From IMG/VR virus record IMGVR_UViG_3300038468_000121, positions 1 to 23,802 of that record: a stretch of DNA of 23,802 nucleotides. One strand, given 5' to 3'. Every line of letters begins with the position of its first letter. The stretch's first letter is position 1. Shown in pieces: positions 7,264 through 23,603 of the stretch. The notes under the pieces were generated by a model. It searched no databases and had not been told where the DNA came from. It saw only the letters and a program-made list of their open reading frames with translations. This stretch comes from a virus. The position numbers and the translations under genes are program-made.

Positions 7264-7821
7264 TCACCTACTCAGCGCGTTCACGCTCTGCGTGAGCTGC
7301 TCGATCTGGAGCTCCTGCGCGCTCTTCGGCGCCACGTCCGCACCTGGCGCTCCCGGGGGGCCCTCAAGGGGCTTCACGACGAAGAGCGGCCTCACGGGAC
7401 GGTACTGCTGCAGGGGGATCGAGCCAGTCCACAAGCCCTGTTCGTCCTGCTCGAGCAGTGGGATCCCACCGTCCACGACCACCTGAGTGATCCCGTACGG
7501 CGGCGCGTTGAGGAGCGCGTGCACGATGCTCATCGATGTCGGGCGCGCGCCGAACGCGGGGGGCTGCAGCTTCGCCGCGGCAAACGCCAGCCACGCGAGG
7601 TACTGCGCCGGCTCCCAAAGCATGAACTCCCACGTGAGCTTCGCGAGCCCCATGCTGGTGAACACGATCCCCGTAGAGAGACCGTAGCCTTGGCGCTCAT
7701 CCCACTTCTGACCTGGACCGGTCCCCTTCACGCGCCCGACACCAGGCGAGGACATGCCGTCGAGCACGATGACGTTGTCGCGCTCGCCGCGCGGGAAGTC
7801 GGTCGGCAGGGAGAGGGTCAA
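7264..7821 (-). CDS. Tail/baseplate-associated protein of unknown family
   Basis: I chose the TTG start that overlaps the tape measure stop as TTGA, giving 185 residues, because the same overlap type recurs all through the block and a longer frame would lie inside the tape measure gene. The centre has a compact hydrophobic region (LTWEFMLWEPAQYLAWLAFAA), then VVVDGGIPLLEQDEQGLWTG. The final 25 residues look like a short coiled coil (AQELQIEQLTQSVNALSR). It occupies the place of Mu gpN (DNA circularisation/tail protein) between tape measure and hub but I do not see gpN features. A tail-tip or baseplate connector role is likely only from position. Confidence 0.6.
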   Translation of the reverse strand: MTLSLPTDFPRGERDNVIVLDGMSSPGVGRVKGTGPGQKWDERQGYGLSTGIVFTSMGLAKLTWEFMLWEPAQYLAWLAFAAAKLQPPAFGARPTSMSIVHALLNAPPYGITQVVVDGGIPLLEQDEQGLWTGSIPLQQYRPVRPLFVVKPLEGPPGAPGADVAPKSAQELQIEQLTQSVNALSR

Positions 7822-9824
7822 GTCTCGACCTCCACGCCCGCGCCGCGCGCCATGGTCACGAGCGCCTCGGTGAGCTTCTTCGTGAACGCGCGATCGGTCA
7901 GCGCGTCGGCGAGGGCCGCCGCATCGCCGCTGCCGGCCTGGATCACGATGGCGCCGGGGGCGATCGTGATGCTCGGCCCGCTCGCCGCGGCGCGCGCGCC
8001 GTAGGCCCCCATCGCGTTGCGCGCCATCCGCTCGACCGCCGCCGCTGCCGACGGCGCCTCGGCGTCGATACCGCTCGCCGCGCCCTGCGGAGCGCTGCGG
8101 CCGATCCGCTCGAAGGCCTTCGATGGCGAGTGCGCGTCCCACACCTCCTTGAGCGCCTTCTTCGCGTCGTCGCCGATCTTCTTCACCGAATCGATCACGT
8201 CCGACGCGCCGGATCGGATGCCCGCCGCGAGCCCGCCGACGAGATCCTTTCCGAGCGAGATCCACGACGTGAGCGCCGTCTTGACCTGCGCGCCCGCGTC
8301 GAGCACGGATCGCACCGCGCCGACGAGGAGGAGCGTCACGCGGAGGAAGGTCACGATCGCCGTCACCGCCCCGCGCGCCGCGAGCGCGATCGTGTTCAGG
8401 ACGTTCCCCAGCTGCGTCCCCACCGCGCCGAAGATGTCGATCTCCCCCTTGATCCCAAGCTCTCGCGCGAAGGCGCGGATCGCGTTGCGCACCTGCAGGA
8501 ACGCGATCTGCAGCGTCAACCCCACGATCACCATGCCGAGGAATGCTTCCTTCAGCGGCGGCACCGCGCGCTTGGCCACGTCGGAAATTGCGTTGCCGAT
8601 CGACGTGACAATCGCCTTGATCGCCTTGCCGCTCACGGTGCTCGTATCGAAGAGCTGCGCGAGCTCGTGCAGCCCATTGAGGAGCGGCTCGAGGTCCACA
8701 TCACTCGCCAGGCGCGCGAGGCTCTCCTTGAACTTCGCCGCGATGTTCGGGAGCGAGAGCATCTGCTTCGCGTTGATCGCGCCGAACTTCTTCTCCACCG
8801 CGCTCCGGAGCGCGGCCGCGCCGTCCGCGAGCTTCACGCGCCCGTCGAGCAGCGCGAGCCTCGCCTCAGCCACGCCCTTCTGCGTCGCGCCGCCGAGCGC
8901 CCGGGCCACTTCGTCGAACGTGACGCCTGTCCCGATCAGCTCCTGGGGGTTCAGCCGCAGCCGGCCGAATTGTCGTCCACGCTCGATGAAGCTCCTCAGC
9001 TTCGCGCCCGCATCGTCGCCGAGGGCCGCCGCGGCGTGCGCCACCGCGGTCATCGTGTCCACCCAGGTCTGCCCGCCGATGTTCTGCTTCGCGAGCCCCT
9101 TCCCGAGCTCGTCCAGCTGCGCCTTCGTGAGCGGAACCTTGCGCGCGAGCAGATCCACCTGATCGCCGAAGTTCTTCCCCCACTGCTCGTTGCCGAACGC
9201 GGCATCTCGAAGCAACCGCGCCGACCTCGCCGCGTCTGCGGTCACGACGATCCACTTGATGAGGCTCACCGCGCCTTCGGCGACCGTCTGCGCGAGCTTC
9301 GCCGTGATCGCCACGAGGGCGCCGATCGCGAACACCGCGACGCCCGCCGCGCCAGACACGCCGTCACCCATCAGCTCCTTCAACGAGGAGAACTGCGCAG
9401 AGAGCCCCGCGAGCGGCCCCCCGGCCTTGCCGATCGCCGCGTTGAGGCTCCCCATCGCGTCGGCGGCCTGCTTCTCCCCGCCGTTCTTCGTCGCCGCCGT
9501 GAGCTTGCTCTTCTCCGAGGCCGCGCGCTTCGCCTGCGCCGATAGCCCCTCGTACGTGCGCCCCTGCTTCAGGATCGCGAGGTTCGCCGCGCTGATAGAG
9601 TCGCGCTCAGCGCCGATCTTCGCCTTCAGGTCCGCGCGCGCGCTCTTCACCTCGTTGGTGTCGCCGCGGAGCGAGCGCTGGGCGGCGCTCATGCGCTTCA
9701 TCGCAGCGGTGGAGGAATCGATCTGCTGACGAAGACGGTCGAGCTCACCGGCCATCGCGCCGGCGTCGGCCGTCGAGCCGTCGTCGTCGAATTTGACCGT
9801 GAACGTCGCTGCCTTGTCCGCCAC
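7818..9824 (-). CDS. Tail tape measure protein
   Basis: The 668-residue protein is the longest in the tail block and follows the chaperone by three bases (GTG start with AAGGGG before it). N-terminal residues 25-110 form a coiled coil (GELDRLRQQIDSS, KSARADLKAKIGAERDS). Hydrophobic helices lie at 157-195 and 428-445, with another amphipathic/hydrophobic set at 475-505. A HSPSKAF motif (565-571), seen near the C-terminus of many tape measures, precedes an Ala-rich tail. At roughly 0.15 nm per residue it predicts a tail of about 100 nm. The protein sets tail length and is ejected during infection. Its stop overlaps the next start (TTGA). Confidence 0.88.
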   Translation of the reverse strand: MADKAATFTVKFDDDGSTADAGAMAGELDRLRQQIDSSTAAMKRMSAAQRSLRGDTNEVKSARADLKAKIGAERDSISAANLAILKQGRTYEGLSAQAKRAASEKSKLTAATKNGGEKQAADAMGSLNAAIGKAGGPLAGLSAQFSSLKELMGDGVSGAAGVAVFAIGALVAITAKLAQTVAEGAVSLIKWIVVTADAARSARLLRDAAFGNEQWGKNFGDQVDLLARKVPLTKAQLDELGKGLAKQNIGGQTWVDTMTAVAHAAAALGDDAGAKLRSFIERGRQFGRLRLNPQELIGTGVTFDEVARALGGATQKGVAEARLALLDGRVKLADGAAALRSAVEKKFGAINAKQMLSLPNIAAKFKESLARLASDVDLEPLLNGLHELAQLFDTSTVSGKAIKAIVTSIGNAISDVAKRAVPPLKEAFLGMVIVGLTLQIAFLQVRNAIRAFARELGIKGEIDIFGAVGTQLGNVLNTIALAARGAVTAIVTFLRVTLLLVGAVRSVLDAGAQVKTALTSWISLGKDLVGGLAAGIRSGASDVIDSVKKIGDDAKKALKEVWDAHSPSKAFERIGRSAPQGAASGIDAEAPSAAAAVERMARNAMGAYGARAAASGPSITIAPGAIVIQAGSGDAAALADALTDRAFTKKLTEALVTMARGAGVEVET

Positions 9825-9827
9825 CGC

Positions 9828-10486
9828 TTACCCCTTCGGCGACCTCGCGTCCGTCACCTGCTTGATCCCGAGCCACCCGCGCACCGCCGCGGCCACGGTC
9901 CGGTGGTCGTCGATGAGCTCCGCGATCAGCCGCGCGACCACCGACCTACGGACGTCCTCCTCGTCGCCGGGGAGGAGCGCCTCGATGCACTCCGCCTCGT
10001 ACTGCCGGTCCGCCCGTGCTCGGCGGACGAGCTCTAGAATTTTCCCTCTTCCCTATCGCGCCTCCCCGTCGCGAGGTAGTTCGCCGCGTCGACCACGCGT
10101 CCGACGACGCCGGGATGCTTCGCTGCGAGCCCGTTGAACTCCTCGCGGGCCGGGTGCGCGATGCACGTCGCGGCGTAGGCGTGCATCTCGGCTGTGTCGA
10201 TCCCCTGCTCCTTGATCACCGCGCGCTGCAGGGCGGCCTGATACCGCTTGTGCGGCGCGAGCTCGGGCGGCTTCACCACGATCCACCCGCGGCCGATCGG
10301 CCCGCAGTCCACGAGAGCGAACGCGCGCCCTAGCGCGCCAAGCTCCTCCTCGAAGCGATCCACGAGCTCCAGGCGCGCAAGCTCGTGCCCCTTCGCTTCG
10401 GCGTCGCGTTTCTCCTCGCGCGCCGCCTGCTTCGCCTGAAGCTCGGCGATCCGAGCGGCCACCGGATCCGGCCCCGTGCCGTTCAC
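9828..10486 (-). CDS. Tail assembly chaperone, -1 frameshift long form (gpGT-type)
   Basis: If ribosomes slip back one base on GGGAAAA (10046-10040), codons GGA AAA are re-read as GGG AAA and translation continues with ATT CTA GAG to TAA at 9828-9830. The fusion has 219 residues: 149 of the short form plus 70 more. The extra part is helical and charged (QYEAECIEALLPG, SVVARLIAELIDDHRTVAAA) and stays open up to four bases before the tape measure start. It has no start codon of its own near its beginning, no ribosome-binding site, and would otherwise be a 200-base gap in a genome with almost none. Those facts support frameshift expression as in lambda GT. Confidence 0.78.
10008..10028 (-). promoter_or_regulatory. 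Frameshift-stimulating hairpin candidate
   Basis: Eleven bases after the slippery heptamer, GTCCGCC pairs perfectly with GGCGGAC around the seven-base loop GAGCACG. The stem is almost all G-C. The spacer is slightly longer than the usual 5-9 bases, but a stable stem at this point is the expected stimulator. It also contains the stop codon region of the short form upstream. Confidence 0.65.
10034..10486 (-). CDS. Tail assembly chaperone, short form (gpG-type)
   Basis: A 150-residue protein from a GTG overlapping the tube stop. It is mostly helical and charged (for example AREEKRDAEAKGHELARLEL), with a small folded centre (FALVDCGPIGRGWIVVKPPE). It lies between the tube and tape measure genes, the fixed location of the two-product tail chaperone gene of long-tailed phages (lambda G/GT). 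Four codons before its TAG the heptamer GGGAAAA begins in phase for -1 slippage, as described for the long form. The short product binds tape measure and helps build the tail, and is not in the virion. Confidence 0.75.
   Translation of the reverse strand: MNGTGPDPVAARIAELQAKQAAREEKRDAEAKGHELARLELVDRFEEELGALGRAFALVDCGPIGRGWIVVKPPELAPHKRYQAALQRAVIKEQGIDTAEMHAYAATCIAHPAREEFNGLAAKHPGVVGRVVDAANYLATGRRDREEGKF
10040..10046 (-). promoter_or_regulatory. Slippery heptamer for -1 frameshift
   Basis: GGGAAAA on the minus strand, phased G GGA AAA (X XXY YYZ) relative to the chaperone frame. It ends three bases before the TAG codon. The lambda G/GT site is GGGAAAG; this is an accepted variant that allows both tRNAs to re-pair. 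Confidence 0.8.
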
Positions 10487-10983
10487 AGCGCCCTCGTCGG
10501 ATCGTACAGGGTCATCCCGTTGCGGGAGACGCCGAGCGTGCCGATCGTGAACTCGGTCAAGAGCTCGCCGGTGCTTTCGTCTTGGGTTTCGCTCACACCA
10601 TCGACCGTGCAGCCCACCGCCACGGTCGTATCGACCGGCAGCCCCACGCCCGTGGGGATTGGCTCCGCGACCTGGAGCTGCATCGAGAACTCCGCCGACC
10701 CGTACGAGCCTCCGCCCTGCGTCAGCGCGAGCGCGGTGAGCTGCATCATGACCTCGCGGGCAGAGTCCCGCAGCATCGTCAGCTTGATCTTCGGCGGCTT
10801 GTACTTGCCGCTCGGCTTGCCCACCGGGCGGCCATCCTTCTTCATCACGTGCACGGGCTCTCGCTCGCGCGCCTCGTCGCTGACCTCGAACGCCTTGATC
10901 CCGTTGTACGGGATCATCTCGAGCAGGAAGGAGCACGATTGCCAGCTGTAGATCTTGTCCTGGATCCGGATGATGTCGGTCAC
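10483..10983 (-). CDS. Tail tube protein
   Basis: The 166-residue protein follows the sheath gene by 13 bases. GAGGAG stands seven bases before GTG, a strong site that suits an abundant protein. It has the tube-protein style: a short N-terminal part (DIIRIQDKIYSWQSCSF), a beta-rich body (PKIKLTMLRDSA, EFSMQLQVAEPI), and paired strands at the end (TEFTIGTLGVSRNGMTLYD). Length suits Mu gpM-like and other myophage tube proteins (120-180). Its stop overlaps the chaperone start as GTGA. Identification is by position and composition; no catalytic motif exists in this family. Confidence 0.72.
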   Translation of the reverse strand: MTDIIRIQDKIYSWQSCSFLLEMIPYNGIKAFEVSDEAREREPVHVMKKDGRPVGKPSGKYKPPKIKLTMLRDSAREVMMQLTALALTQGGGSYGSAEFSMQLQVAEPIPTGVGLPVDTTVAVGCTVDGVSETQDESTGELLTEFTIGTLGVSRNGMTLYDPTRAL

Positions 10984-10996
10984 GATCCCGCTCCTC

Positions 10997-12460
10997 TCAG
11001 CCGCCCACCGGGCCGCTGGTGATCGTCTTCACGTACTTCGCGGCGACGTCCCACCCCTTGACATAGGCGAGCGCCACGACCTCGAGATCCGCCTTCACGA
11101 TCGCCCCGCCGTTGCTCGAGATGTCGTCGTCTCGGTGAAGCGTGACGCGCACCTCGCTCACACGACCCTTGGACGGGTTCAGCAAGGCCGCGTTGATGTC
11201 GCCCTCGATCGCCTGCGCGTCGGTCTCGGCGATGTAGCGCTCGCCCTTCGGCCCCGTCGTTTTGCTCTTCGCGACGCCGCGCGAGAGGTTCTGATCGAAC
11301 CGCTGACGCGCGACCTCGGCGAGGCGATTCATCACGCGCGCGTGCTGCCAGTAGACGTAGTCGCTCCCCGACGGGGAGATCAGGTTCGCGTTGTTCACGT
11401 AGGCCCCCGTCTGGCCGTCGAAGCTGCGCAGCGCGGTCGCCTGCTGATCGTCGGCCCCGGGGTACAGCGCCTCGTCGTGGTAGAGTGGGTTCTTCCGCGA
11501 GTCCTTGATGACGCAGTTGGGGAGCGGGCCGAGCGCGACGTAGGCCACGTCCGTGGCGATGTCGACCGCCATGCCGCGCGCGGCTACGTGCAGGCCCGCG
11601 GGGCGGAAGAGCGCGACGCCGAGGAAGCGATCTACCGCATCCCCGCCGTCGTAGCAGAGCACGATCCCCAGGCTCGACACCTGGCTCCGCACCGCCGTGT
11701 ACGCGGTGAGATAGTCCGCGCGGCTCTCGCCGTCCGCGCGTCGTCGGAAGGACATGATCGCCGTCTTGTACTTGCCCTGATCTTCGAGCGTCGTGAGCCA
11801 CGAGGAGACGAGCGAGATCGCCGCCGCGCTGGAGTCGCCGTCGATGAGCACTGCCTCCCACGGCTGCGACGTGACGCGCAACGCCTCGAGAGAGGCCACG
11901 AGGTCGGCCGAGGTCGGCCGAGGTCCCGTCGTCGTGCAGCTGATCTCGTCGTCGGCCACGAGGGTGTCGACCGTGAGGTTGATCTTTACGCCGGTGTTGG
12001 CGATCTCGATGTACGTCGCCGAACCGAGCGCGGTCACCGGGCCGTAGGTCACGCCGTCGTCCACGCTCGTCTGGTACGTGATCCCAGGCGTGCCGACGGT
12101 GCCGCCGGCGACGATGAGGATCCTCACCAGAAAGTCGTCGAAGGGGAGGCTCGTGCCGTCCGCCGTCGGCGTGCTCGCGCCGGTGCCGCTCAGCGTGACC
12201 GCGCCGTAGGCACCCGCCGTCGAGCACGCGGTGCGGTTCAGCAGCACGGGCTTCTTGGCGGTCGCGAGGTCATGCGCGCCGAAGGACGTGAGCCGGCCGT
12301 ACCCGAGATCGTCGGGGATCAGCGTGTCGCGGGTGTAGCTCGACGGCGTGTCGAGCGCGCCCGTCGACGATCCGGCGAGGATCGCCAGGATTCCCTCGGA
12401 CCCCGGCCGCACCACACCGGTCTGGCCGTCCACCTTCGTGATCGTCGTCTTCGGGGTCAT
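10997..12460 (-). CDS. Tail sheath protein
   Basis: The 487-residue protein is the contractile sheath, which marks this as a myophage. It begins in the terminator stop codon (ATGA). Features of sheath proteins: an N-terminal GPVRPGSEGILAILAGS-like region, a long variable beta domain (about 90-185), then the conserved core with WEAVLIDGDSS, YKTAIMSFRRR, DYVYWQHARVMNRLAEVARQ, and a terminal domain in which basic and hydrophobic beta strands alternate (EVRVTLHRDDDI, DLEVVALAYVKG). It sits immediately before the tube gene, as in Mu (L, M) and P2 (FI, FII). A short 10-base tandem repeat lies inside the gene at 11901-11925. Confidence 0.85.
   Translation of the reverse strand: MTPKTTITKVDGQTGVVRPGSEGILAILAGSSTGALDTPSSYTRDTLIPDDLGYGRLTSFGAHDLATAKKPVLLNRTACSTAGAYGAVTLSGTGASTPTADGTSLPFDDFLVRILIVAGGTVGTPGITYQTSVDDGVTYGPVTALGSATYIEIANTGVKINLTVDTLVADDEISCTTTGPRPTSADLVASLEALRVTSQPWEAVLIDGDSSAAAISLVSSWLTTLEDQGKYKTAIMSFRRRADGESRADYLTAYTAVRSQVSSLGIVLCYDGGDAVDRFLGVALFRPAGLHVAARGMAVDIATDVAYVALGPLPNCVIKDSRKNPLYHDEALYPGADDQQATALRSFDGQTGAYVNNANLISPSGSDYVYWQHARVMNRLAEVARQRFDQNLSRGVAKSKTTGPKGERYIAETDAQAIEGDINAALLNPSKGRVSEVRVTLHRDDDISSNGGAIVKADLEVVALAYVKGWDVAAKYVKTITSGPVGG
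11901..11925. repeat. 10-bp tandem repeat within sheath gene
   Basis: aggtcggccg is repeated twice in tandem and followed by aggtc. Because ten is not a multiple of three, loss or gain of a unit would shift the sheath frame. The present frame is intact, and the repeat encodes a Pro/Thr/Ser/Ala segment of the variable domain. Confidence 0.85.
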
Positions 12461-20001: not shown

Positions 20002-20552
20002 CGGGTGCGCTCCTCCTCCAGCGCGCGAAGCTCCCGCGCGACCGCCGCGGCGGCCTCGGGATGCGGCTGCAGCGCGCGCTCGAGCGCCCGCTTGATGCGC
20101 GACCAGACCGCGGTCCGCATCACGTGGGCGCCCACGAGGAACTCGAGCTGCACCACCTGTCGAAGCGTCACGGCGATCGAGGCCATGACCTTCGCTTTCT
20201 CGAGCGGTGTGCTCGCCGCCTCGAGCCTCAGGGAGGCGAGGAGCCCGTTGGCCATTTGCTCGAGCTCCGCCGCGCGCGCGAGGACGTCCGGCGGCGCGCT
20301 CGCCACCGGCTTCGATGTTGCGAGCGCGGTGCGCTGGCGTGTCGCGGCCTCCTCCCACCAGGCCGGCTCGATCGCGAAGTGCTTCTCCAGGATCTCGCGC
20401 TTGTCGGCAGTCGGCTTCGACGCCCCTGAGAGCCACTTGCACACGGCGACGCGAGAGACCGACGCGCACGCGGCGATCTCGTCCTGCGTCTTGCCAGTTC
20501 GCGCGAGCGCGATAGCAGCCCGTGTCCGTGACTCCGGGCGGGCGCGGCTCAC
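19998..20552 (-). CDS. Putative terminase small subunit (HTH DNA-binding)
   Basis: GTG start in a GTGA overlap with the glycosyltransferase stop gives 184 residues. Residues 10-44 form a helix-turn-helix: KTQDEIAACASVSRVAVCKW reads as a recognition unit of the XRE/terminase type. The remainder is helical, with Leu/Ala-rich amphipathic stretches at 85-140 that could oligomerise, and a charged C-terminal tail ending EEERTR. Small terminase subunits bind pac DNA through an N-terminal HTH, form rings through a helical core and sit immediately before the large subunit; size, domain order and position all fit. The next gene starts in its stop codon (ATGA). It could instead be a late regulator, because sequence conservation of small terminases is poor. 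Confidence 0.7.
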   Translation of the reverse strand: MSRARPESRTRAAIALARTGKTQDEIAACASVSRVAVCKWLSGASKPTADKREILEKHFAIEPAWWEEAATRQRTALATSKPVASAPPDVLARAAELEQMANGLLASLRLEAASTPLEKAKVMASIAVTLRQVVQLEFLVGAHVMRTAVWSRIKRALERALQPHPEAAAAVARELRALEEERTR

Positions 20553-22312
20553 GCGAGCCTCCTCCGCAGCCCGAAGCTCTCGAGCCTGCCCCGGTGCGTG
20601 ATCGAGCCGTGGTGGTTCACCGGCGAGCCTGGGCCAAGGTACATGTGCACCTTGCCGCCCAGGCGCCGCCACCGCTCGCAGAACGCGTAGTCCTCGCCGA
20701 GCATGTGCCCACGACGAATCGGAAGGAGGAAGAGCGCCACGTGCTGACGCGACGTCTGCTCGTCCGCGAAGGTGAGCGACGGGTCGGCTTCCTCGTCGAG
20801 GTACCCCAACACCCGCCGGATCGCGCCCGCGAGCTCTCGATCTTCCATGCGCTCGGCGTGCTGCCTCAGAAGCCTCCGCTCGGCGACGAGGCGCTCGCGA
20901 TAGAATGCGACCATGCGCTCGATCGCGCTGCGTTGGATGAGCGCGCACCCGAGCGCAATCCGCTCGACCTCGACGCACTGCTGTTCGTCAACCCTTCGAT
21001 CGGCATCGGGGAGATAGACCACGGGATAGTTCCACGCCGGCGCATCGGGTGGGTCCCCGGCAGCGAGCACCTCTCCGCCAGCGCGCGCGACCGCCGCGAA
21101 GTTCACCTGGCCGCGCCGCGGGTACGGTGCCGCGACGACCTCCTTCCCGGCGGCGAGCATGTGGAAGAGCAGCTCCGGCCCGAAGGAGACATCCGCGTCG
21201 ACGAAGAAGAGATGCGACGCGTCTGAGTCGAGGAACGACGTCACCAGCCGCGACCGCGCGCGGACCAGATCCATCCGCTCCTGCGCGACGTAGTCCACCT
21301 CCACAGGGACCATGAGGTCCGCGAACTCCGCGCCCTGAAGGCGCAGCAGTGTCGTCGTGTGCTCCGGGTGATGCCCCTCTCGCGTCGGCGTCGCGACGAA
21401 GACACGCGGGGGCGGGTCGCCGTTGGCGCGGAGCGCGCGCGCCCGCTGGGCGTACCCGAGCGAGCGGATCAAGTTGCGCCCGTTGTCGCGCTGCCAGCGC
21501 TGCACGTCCTCCTCGGTCACCCCTCTGACCCACCGTCGCGCGAGGTGTGGCGTCGCCTCATAAAACCGCCCGACGTGCGGCGGCGCGACATCGGTCCGCC
21601 AGGCGGCGGCGGCAGCGAGGACGGGCGCGCGCGCGTCAGTGTCCCACCGCACGAGCGGGCGTCGGTTCGGGTGCCCGTCGTTCGCGTAGGTGCTCGCGAT
21701 CTCCGTGTCGTGGTCGATGATCGTCGGGAGCGGGTGCCAGATCCGCTCGCCGGTCACGAGACACCAGACCGCGATCAGCGTGTCCTCGGTGAGCGCCGGT
21801 TGCCCATTCGGGCCCGGCGTCCGCCAGCCGTCGAGCAGCTCGGACGCGCGCCACGAGAGGAAGGCAGTGAGCTTCGCTCGGGGGACCACGTAGCCCACGC
21901 CGACCAAGCAGTCTGCCGTGGTGAACCATCGGTGCCCCTCGGCGGCGAGCGCGGTCGCGGCGTGATGCACGACCTCGAGGCCGATCACCGCCTCGGGCTG
22001 CGCCTGCACCATTGCGGTGAGCTCGGACCAGAACGACGGTGAGACGCGCGCGTCGTCCTGCAGGAAGATGCAGTGGCTCGCCTGCGTCCCCGCGGCCCAC
22101 TGCCACATGTGTTCGCTCCAGACGTCGTTGGTCGCTCGCTCAGTGATCTCGCACGAGCGCAGCAGCGCATCGCTGGATCGCGCGTGAGATTGAAACCAAG
22201 TCTCAGCGCCTGGCCGGACATGAAGATCGGCGCGCAGCCGCGCCATGCTCGCGGCCCGCTCGGGTACCCACGGCGTGTGCGAGATCGCGAGCGCGAAGGT
22301 GGTCGCACTCAC
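20549..22312 (-). CDS. Two-domain glycosyltransferase (GT-A-like halves)
   Basis: The GTG start overlaps the lipoprotein stop as GTGA, giving 587 residues; a longer frame upstream would run through the lipoprotein gene and has no support. The first half (about 1-240) looks like a nucleotide-diphospho-sugar transferase domain: a FLQDDARVSP segment (84-92) carries the acidic metal-binding cluster, and EDT lies at 176-178. The second half (about 300-587) starts VFVATPTREGHHPEH, has the DxD-type motif FFVDADVSF (369-377), then GEDYAFCERWR (539-549) and NHHGS (566-570), resembling Anp1-like/family-2 glycosyltransferases found in phages. No membrane segment is seen, so it should be cytoplasmic. It overlaps the terminase small subunit gene by four bases. 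Acceptor could be virion protein, DNA or host surface glycan; sequence does not say. Confidence 0.8.
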   Translation of the reverse strand: MSATTFALAISHTPWVPERAASMARLRADLHVRPGAETWFQSHARSSDALLRSCEITERATNDVWSEHMWQWAAGTQASHCIFLQDDARVSPSFWSELTAMVQAQPEAVIGLEVVHHAATALAAEGHRWFTTADCLVGVGYVVPRAKLTAFLSWRASELLDGWRTPGPNGQPALTEDTLIAVWCLVTGERIWHPLPTIIDHDTEIASTYANDGHPNRRPLVRWDTDARAPVLAAAAAWRTDVAPPHVGRFYEATPHLARRWVRGVTEEDVQRWQRDNGRNLIRSLGYAQRARALRANGDPPPRVFVATPTREGHHPEHTTTLLRLQGAEFADLMVPVEVDYVAQERMDLVRARSRLVTSFLDSDASHLFFVDADVSFGPELLFHMLAAGKEVVAAPYPRRGQVNFAAVARAGGEVLAAGDPPDAPAWNYPVVYLPDADRRVDEQQCVEVERIALGCALIQRSAIERMVAFYRERLVAERRLLRQHAERMEDRELAGAIRRVLGYLDEEADPSLTFADEQTSRQHVALFLLPIRRGHMLGEDYAFCERWRRLGGKVHMYLGPGSPVNHHGSITHRGRLESFGLRRRLA

Positions 22313-22671
22313 TGGACACCTCGCCCGCAGACGATCCGCCCGCACACCGCGCCGGCGCCGGTACAGCGCACCGTCGTGTCGCTCGGCTCTTCCGTCACCT
22401 CCACGGGCGAGTAGCATTCCGACTCCAGTCGGACCGCTCCGCCGGCGACCTCGGCGCGACACGCGAAGAGCAGCGAGGCGCTTGGCGCTGAGATGCACTC
22501 GCATTGCACGTACCCGGAGCCGGACGGCGAGAGGAACACCAGCGATTTGCTCGAGCACCTCGGGTAGGCCGCGAGCGCCGAGTCGGCCCCGGCGTCGTCG
22601 GGCGGCGGTGCATTGACCGCGCTGCTACAGCCGGCGACGAGGATGGCGCCCGTGATCGCGAGCGCCCTCAC
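22309..22671 (-). CDS. Cys-rich predicted lipoprotein
   Basis: The chosen GTG start forms a GTGA overlap with the epimerase stop, and the stop forms another GTGA with the glycosyltransferase start, so the 120-residue gene exactly fills the space between them. The N-terminus is a short signal peptide ending in a lipobox, LVAGC, with the acylated Cys at position 15. A flexible linker rich in Pro, Asp, Ala and Gly follows (residues 21-36), a style common in Myxococcota secreted proteins. The remaining domain holds eight further cysteines (39, 57, 59, 71, 86, 103, 110, 115), suggesting a disulphide-bonded fold outside the cytoplasm. I do not recognise the family. A phage-encoded surface lipoprotein could block superinfection, as T5 Llp does, but that is inference from location only. 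Residue +2 is Ser, which in enterobacteria would favour outer-membrane sorting. Confidence 0.75.
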   Translation of the reverse strand: MRALAITGAILVAGCSSAVNAPPPDDAGADSALAAYPRCSSKSLVFLSPSGSGYVQCECISAPSASLLFACRAEVAGGAVRLESECYSPVEVTEEPSDTTVRCTGAGAVCGRIVCGRGVQ

Positions 22672-23603
22672 GCTGCCCTCGGCGGCGGCTCGGGTCGCGT
22701 CCACCCGAGGTGCTCGAGCGCTTCTCGGATCCCATCGCGGATCGGGCGACGAGGACGGTAGTACGGGGCCAGCTTCTCCCCCGAGCACCAGAGGTCCACT
22801 GGGTCCCCCACCGCGCCTCCCGCTCGACTCTCGAAGGTCACCGCGTCGCGAGAGAACCCCATCTCCTCCACCACGTCCCACCACGAGACTCGTTCCTCGC
22901 TCGTCACGGTGTAGCAGCCGCGCTGCGGTGCCGTGCCATGATCGAGCAGCCGGACCACCGCGCCCGCCACATCGGACGCGTGGACCCACGACTTGCGTTG
23001 CACCCCGTCGTCGGCCGCATGGATGCGCCGGTTCTCCGTAGCCATGCGCACGAAGTCACCGATCACCCCGTGGCGCGTTCGCGCGCCCACGACGTTCACG
23101 AGCCGGAGCGCCCACCACGGATAGCCGCGCTTGTGCGCGTACGCCGCGACCATCGCCTCGCACGCCAGCTTGCTCGCGGCGTACGGGCTCTCCGACGTCT
23201 CCGGCGACGCGTCGGTCTCGCGGACCGGCCGCAAGAGGCGCTGCCGGCCGTAGACGCTGGCGGTCGACAGGAACACGAGCGGCACGCCTGGCATCTGCTC
23301 GAGCAGCGCGCGTGTGCAGTCCACGTTGTCGGTGTAGAGCCTGGACCGCTGCCCGACGCTCACCCAATTGTGACGCAGGTCCGCGTACGCCGCGGCGTGC
23401 ACGATCGCGTCCGCGTCGGCGAGGTGCCCGGCGAGCGCTTGCGTTGTCACGTCCACGCGCCGCAGTTCGGCGCCCGAGTTGACGTTCTCTTCGCGCCCCG
23501 TGCGCAGATCGTCAAGCACTCGCACCGCATGCCCACGCGCGATCAGCGCGTCCACAATGTGGCTCCCCACGAACCCGGCTCCGCCCGTCACCACGATTCG
23601 CAT
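22668..23603 (-). CDS. NAD-dependent nucleotide-sugar epimerase/dehydratase (extended SDR)
   Basis: This 311-residue protein has the hallmarks of extended short-chain dehydrogenases that act on nucleotide sugars, such as UDP-glucose 4-epimerase and dTDP-glucose dehydratase. The N-terminus is a Rossmann strand with TGGAGFVGSH (GxxGxxG at residues 7-13). An acidic DD at 31-32 ends the second strand, as expected for NAD rather than NADP. The catalytic region shows STASVYG (113-119) and the YxxxK pair Y141/K145 in SPYAASK. Length is normal for the family. The ATG follows GGGAGG by five bases. The 3' end overlaps the lipoprotein gene by four bases (GTGA). Product sugar cannot be read from sequence. 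Together with the glycosyltransferase downstream it suggests making and attaching a sugar during the late phase of infection. Confidence 0.9.
   Translation of the reverse strand: MRIVVTGGAGFVGSHIVDALIARGHAVRVLDDLRTGREENVNSGAELRRVDVTTQALAGHLADADAIVHAAAYADLRHNWVSVGQRSRLYTDNVDCTRALLEQMPGVPLVFLSTASVYGRQRLLRPVRETDASPETSESPYAASKLACEAMVAAYAHKRGYPWWALRLVNVVGARTRHGVIGDFVRMATENRRIHAADDGVQRKSWVHASDVAGAVVRLLDHGTAPQRGCYTVTSEERVSWWDVVEEMGFSRDAVTFESRAGGAVGDPVDLWCSGEKLAPYYRPRRPIRDGIREALEHLGWTRPEPPPRAA

Follow-up and report, generated by a model that had tools for sequence, protein, structure and literature searches.

A putative -1 frameshift site joining two halves of a tail-assembly chaperone gene in a contractile-tailed phage, probably of myxobacteria

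The window, meaning the whole stretch of DNA that was analysed, is a complete IMG/VR record (23.8 kb, linear, metagenomic viral) and is probably a phage genome fragment. From its sequence, and from comparison with related loci, we infer with a probability of about 0.94 that a lambda G/GT-type programmed -1 frameshift joins the two halves of a tail-assembly chaperone encoded on the minus strand. The 0-frame half is located at 10034..10486 (GTG at 10486 to TAG at 10036-10034; 150 aa; counterpart of lambda gpG). The -1 frame extension of 70 residues is located at 9828..10040 (ATT at 10040-10038 to the last codon, then TAA at 9830-9828; counterpart of the lambda T domain). The slippery heptamer GGGAAAA, in the phase G_GGA_AAA, is located at 10040..10046.

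The candidate gene sits in the position expected of a G/GT-type chaperone, in the order tube, chaperone, tape measure, all on the minus strand. The tape measure protein (7818..9824, minus strand; 668 aa, GTG start) was identified by matches to phrog_58 and others (1.5e-15), and the contractile tail sheath (10997..12460, minus strand; 487 aa) by matches to DUF2586 and phrog_907 (1.4e-20 and 8.5e-22, with the DUF2586 E at 8.5e-22). The probable tail tube protein (10483..10983, minus strand; 166 aa) was placed by position alone, with the DUF2586 sheath on one side and the chaperone on the other, and family searches with this protein returned no match. Farther upstream on the minus strand are a Mu-like major head protein, a portal and a large terminase. 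Because of the DUF2586 sheath and the Mu-like major head protein, the phage is classified by gene content as contractile-tailed with a Mu-like head and not as a lambda-like siphovirus; its hosts are bacteria, probably myxobacteria. Adjoining the terminase, a 669-aa glycosyltransferase-like protein (phrog_854, phrog_1574) is encoded on the minus strand at 20549-22558, and a nucleotide-sugar epimerase (phrog_540) is encoded in the same neighbourhood at 22668-23603, also on the minus strand. These two genes perhaps form a phage surface-sugar cassette.

The last codons of the chaperone read GAG GGA AAA TTC TAG, and the heptamer (10046-10040) falls exactly in X_XXY_YYZ phase at the end of the 150-residue frame, as an earlier note on this DNA had claimed; it lies 10 nt from the TAG. 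After a slip the AAA of the heptamer would be re-read at 10043-10041, and decoding would continue as ATT CTA GAG CTC through 70 residues to the TAA, which yields the 70-codon open frame and the 219-residue product (149 + 70) that had been proposed. The -1 frame is bounded by a TAG at 10055-10053 (nine bases 5' of the heptamer) and by the TAA at 9830-9828; three bases, rather than the four first reported, lie between that TAA and the tape-measure GTG at 9824. In this frame the first ATG, GTG or TTG lies 105 nt beyond the start of the heptamer, consistent with the claim that it has no start of its own. Given the upstream TAG and the lack of a start before +105 nt, a shift is possible only within about five codons around GGGAAAA. 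Across the 23.8 kb, the heptamer occurs twice on the minus strand and zero times on the opposite strand. The second copy (19126-19120, minus strand), which is in phase in the large terminase frame, was rejected as a frameshift candidate, its -1 frame being open for only 12 codons. Lambda G was used as a positive control and gave GGGAAAG in phase, 22 nt before the stop.

By itself, an open -1 frame is poor evidence: in DNA this rich in GC, non-coding frames often run for hundreds of bases without a stop. The -1 extensions of relatives, with the window left out, were combined into a profile, which was searched against all 403 six-frame window peptides of at least 25 aa. The sole significant match was minus 10052-9831 (E 1.8e-9), and the runner-up was at 0.56. 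GC content by codon position in the -1 frame of the extension (0.78/0.46/0.94) resembled that of coding frames of this phage, and AF2 predicted three helices (pLDDT 80). By these measures the extension is a genuine protein segment. Its frame reaches to the tape measure gene without a conserved start of its own, as in G/GT-type genes.

Alternatively, ribosomes could re-initiate after the TAG at a start belonging to the extension, either the rare ATT (10040) or a later GTG, and make the extension as a small protein in its own right. The purine-rich stretch at 10055-10041 that precedes the ATT would suit such a start, and the second part is annotated as its own CDS in the Mx4, Riverbug and Mushu records. 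However, ATG, GTG and TTG are missing for 105 nt, the relatives' candidate starts are at unrelated positions with no independent start conserved among them, homology of the extension reaches the heptamer, and the codon after the shift is often not a start. We regard separate translation as very improbable, though it is the least improbable of the rivals to frameshifting. The same records bear on the expectation that annotation tools would miss the second part: a gap is left in MMP17, but the second part is called as a short hypothetical CDS of its own in Mx4, Riverbug and FP_Mushu. No paper on frameshifting in Mx4 was found in a literature search.

Neither a tblastn search of annotated phages with the window chaperone nor a direct nucleotide-pattern search of viral contigs with chaperone or tube protein returned a match. 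Relatives were found through the sheath, since the chaperone gave no direct match. The sheath yielded one viral contig and then nine matches in a second viral scan (one being the same contig, two identical here and one cut off), a truncated Labilithrix metagenome bin, and annotated phages including Mx4, Riverbug, MMP7/MMP17 and FP_Mushu. Within the phylum to which the Labilithrix bin belongs (Myxococcota), 22 of 379 genomes also gave sheath matches. A small gene was present between tube and tape measure in every examined locus of sufficient length. Chaperone identity to the window was 22-35% in the closest group and about 20-35% in the relatives that keep the heptamer and the -1 extension. Loci L050 and L051 have gaps of approximately 445 and 636 bases from the end of the extension to the tape measure, longer than in other loci with a -1 extension, and these gaps contain additional ORFs (e.g. 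146 aa in L050).

For the site, conservation among these relatives is decisive. In five viral contigs (L007, L008, L011, L012 and L013) G_GGA_AAA was found 7-10 nt before the stop; GGGAAAA was unique on both strands of the ~9-kb locus in L007, L008, L011 and L013, and occurred twice in L012. Among the Myxococcota genomes, five carried G_GGA_AAA (L050, L053, L055, L057, L059), four carried lambda's own heptamer G_GGA_AAG (L048, L049, L060, L062), and others had A_AAA_AAA (L051, L054), A_AAT_TTT (L056) or A_AAA_AAG (L061). The sites in Mx4 and FP_Mushu were A_AAA_AAA and A_AAT_TTG. Over 25 loci (the window, viral contigs and Myxococcota genomes), an in-phase A/T-type heptamer starting no more than 31 nt from the stop was present in 19, mostly as G_GGA_AAA or G_GGA_AAG; L061 is counted among the 19, though its extension is in another frame. 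The control rate, taken from the rest of the chaperone and from the tape-measure frame of the compared loci, was 8 in-phase heptamers of this type in 19,387 codons. The nominal binomial tail of ~1e-41 is overstated, as the loci share ancestry and are not independent (L048 and L049 are close relatives). Both heptamer and frame were nevertheless kept at ~20-35% chaperone identity, and the heptamer was thus retained while the surrounding chaperone protein changed. The frameshift is taken to be real because the site persists in relatives whose proteins are very different. The two outcomes that the earlier note named as refuting its reading, an independent start for the extension and a lack of conservation of heptamer and frame, were both looked for among the relatives and not found.

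Slippage of RNA polymerase on an A-run could also give mixed mRNAs from which both products would be made, with the ribosome not responsible. Transcriptional slippage normally requires about eight or more identical bases. Runs of eight A in some relatives (Mx4, L054) make this plausible there, but in the window, as in most relatives, three G are followed by only four A, and what is conserved is a codon-phased heptamer rather than a long A-run; for the window we give this explanation a very small chance, slightly below that of a separate start. Least credible of all is a broken gene, in which an assembly error or recent indel split one continuous chaperone, as might be suspected of a metagenomic viral record, since the same split, direction and heptamer recur in independent assemblies and genomes and since L008 and L009, from different samples, are identical over 1169 compared bases.

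Possible stimulators of a ribosomal slip were also considered. The perfect 7-bp hairpin described in the earlier note is present 11 nt past the heptamer (GTCCGCC at 10028-10022 and GGCGGAC at 10014-10008, with a 7-nt loop). In the folded minimum it forms the core of a possible stimulatory stem-loop of 10 bp with one 1x1 internal loop (10004..10032, minus strand), which begins 7 nt past the heptamer; a spacing of about 5-9 nt is typical of structures that accompany -1 frameshift signals. Folding z values ranged from about -1.2 (101 nt) to -1.6 (55 nt), and a 7-bp hairpin at similar spacing was found in 4.6% of shuffles and at 9.5% of window positions. The stems at the site varied among relatives and the folds were mixed, so conservation of the hairpin was not established. 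The hairpin is barely above chance, many GC-rich places being its equal, and it carries little weight as evidence; it was set aside on the z of -1.6, the equal perfect stem in 4.6% of shuffles and the mixed folds. Upstream of the site, strong anti-Shine-Dalgarno pairing at 3-18 nt was in excess across the 24 loci that carry a -1 site (Fisher p 7e-6, in a post hoc, exploratory comparison), and Shine-Dalgarno-like pairing was strongest in loci such as L046, L047, L051, L011 and L013. A dnaX-like upstream Shine-Dalgarno stimulator is not claimed for the window site, where the pairing was unremarkable (0.26).

Several relatives depart from the full heptamer. In L002 (5061-5072), L015 (6662-6673) and L047 (near 2472-2481) the -1 extension is kept with only A_AAA at the A-site, the P-site triplet not fully matching; these reduced sites are C_GCA_AAA, C_GAA_AAA and C_GGA_AAA (L002, L015, L047). 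L046 (reversed, near 2405-2414) carries GGGGAAATAG, one base out of phase. In L046 and L047 a strong Shine-Dalgarno-like sequence is immediately upstream of the site. Because the sites of L002, L015 and L047 are incomplete and that of L046 is out of phase, a canonical heptamer is not strictly required in this family; the PRFect paper likewise describes many annotated frameshifts as having no classic heptamer (PMC10885494). In five further loci (L058, L061, L063, L004, which is Riverbug, and L005, which is MMP17) the homologous extension lies in the alternative frame (+1 or -2 from that of the chaperone), and L061 has an A run (AAAAAAAG) just before the stop that could serve for a -2 slip.

The identity of the 0-frame protein was approached through its relatives, since no direct match to Pfam, PHROG or NCBIfam was obtained with the window protein itself. 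Homologues A3/A6 were found for it. A family profile of the aligned relatives matched PDB 3fgx (RBSTP2171, uncharacterised) with E 5.5e-12, and DUF6848 was matched at E no greater than 0.1 by 12 of the 26 aligned members. Matches to DUF6848 were found in the homologous genes of FP_Mushu, Thermus and Myxococcota relatives, the best being FP_Mushu gp38 (E 2.9e-41). A profile of the window group, compared with one of Mx4, the Thermus phages and FP_Mushu, gave an hhalign probability of 95.8 (E 7.6e-9). The AF2 model of the window chaperone (pLDDT 92) aligned with 3fgx at Z 10.0 and with the HK97 tail-assembly chaperone 2ob9 at Z 5.8. In a Foldseek search of the PDB, 2ob9 was the top match yet a weak one (E 0.14, probability 0.80), and in a viral structure library several matches reached a probability of at least 0.9, with two of the seven best named tail assembly chaperones. 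Gene position, profiles and predicted fold thus support the assignment of the window protein as a putative tail-assembly chaperone.

The window protein had no match to DUF6848 (PF20941) at E no greater than 1, below the Pfam cut-off for membership, and it differs from DUF6848/3fgx in an extra 40-residue N-terminal helix; its profile matches place it near DUF6848 through intermediates, not as a strict member. No paper on DUF6848 was found in a literature search. DUF6848/3fgx probably represents the zero-frame portion of the tail chaperone described here. A broader reading, which takes in the chaperone family as carried by contractile-tailed phages with Myxococcota and other bacteria as hosts, would be that its recoding signal drifted repeatedly (full -1, reduced -1, +1/-2) while the extension was kept, with DUF6848/3fgx as the zero-frame half; we put this combined reading at even odds. 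Variation of frameshift type is already documented for tail chaperones.

Under the programmed -1 frameshift that we favour, the majority of ribosomes would end at the TAG (10036-10034) and release the 150-aa chaperone. A minority, with tRNA-Gly and tRNA-Lys on G_GGA_AAA, would slip back one base, re-pair on GGG_AAA and add 70 residues up to the TAA, giving the 219-aa fusion. The lambda gpG/gpGT pair suggests, by analogy, that the N-terminal part common to both products would coat the tape measure and that tube subunits would be recruited by the extension, which few copies carry. If the two forms play those lambda-like roles, the ratio of products set by the efficiency of the slip would matter for tail length and assembly.

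Tail-chaperone frameshifts of this sort are already well known, and the window adds another case. By comparison, it extends them to little-studied contractile-tailed phages, probably of myxobacteria, and it defines a precise 219-aa product where gene callers split or miss it. DUF6848/3fgx, an unannotated domain whose structure has been solved, also gains a suggested function, and the related sites (-1 full, -1 reduced, +1/-2) offer a natural series in which recoding signals change and the product is kept.

A conserved -1, -2 or +1 frameshift is found between the major tail and tape-measure genes (PMC5009743, PMC2628397), and tailed phages differ in which of these shifts is used, Mu using -2 (PMC5009743). 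PMC2628397 treats Mu-like and P2 phages in a passage that summarises Xu et al. 2004. In the lambda model, many copies of the short form bind the tape measure, and the additional domain of the rarer frameshifted form brings tube subunits (PMC5009743). The window resembles lambda G/GT in having the gene between the major tail protein and the tape measure, in carrying G_GGA_AAR in the same phase just before the stop, in an extension that ends beside the tape-measure start, and in the low-level fusion that would be expected. It differs from lambda in that the window phage is contractile-tailed, its heptamer has A rather than G as the last base (four relatives have the G-ending form of lambda) and its extension is ~70 aa compared with ~140. 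Comparison by hhalign of a 26-row profile with lambda gpG or Mu gp41 gave a probability below 1%, the targets being single sequences and the comparison insensitive. With Mu and P2 the window phage shares a contractile tail and with Mu the order sheath, tube, chaperone, tape measure; as for Mu gp41 and P2 E/E', the frame changes late in the chaperone gene (PMC5009743, PMC2628397), whereas the shift is -2 in Mu and -1 in the window. The earlier comparison with lambda G/GT is supported as to type of frameshift, but the nearest described precedents, given the DUF2586 sheath and contractile tail, are Mu and P2.
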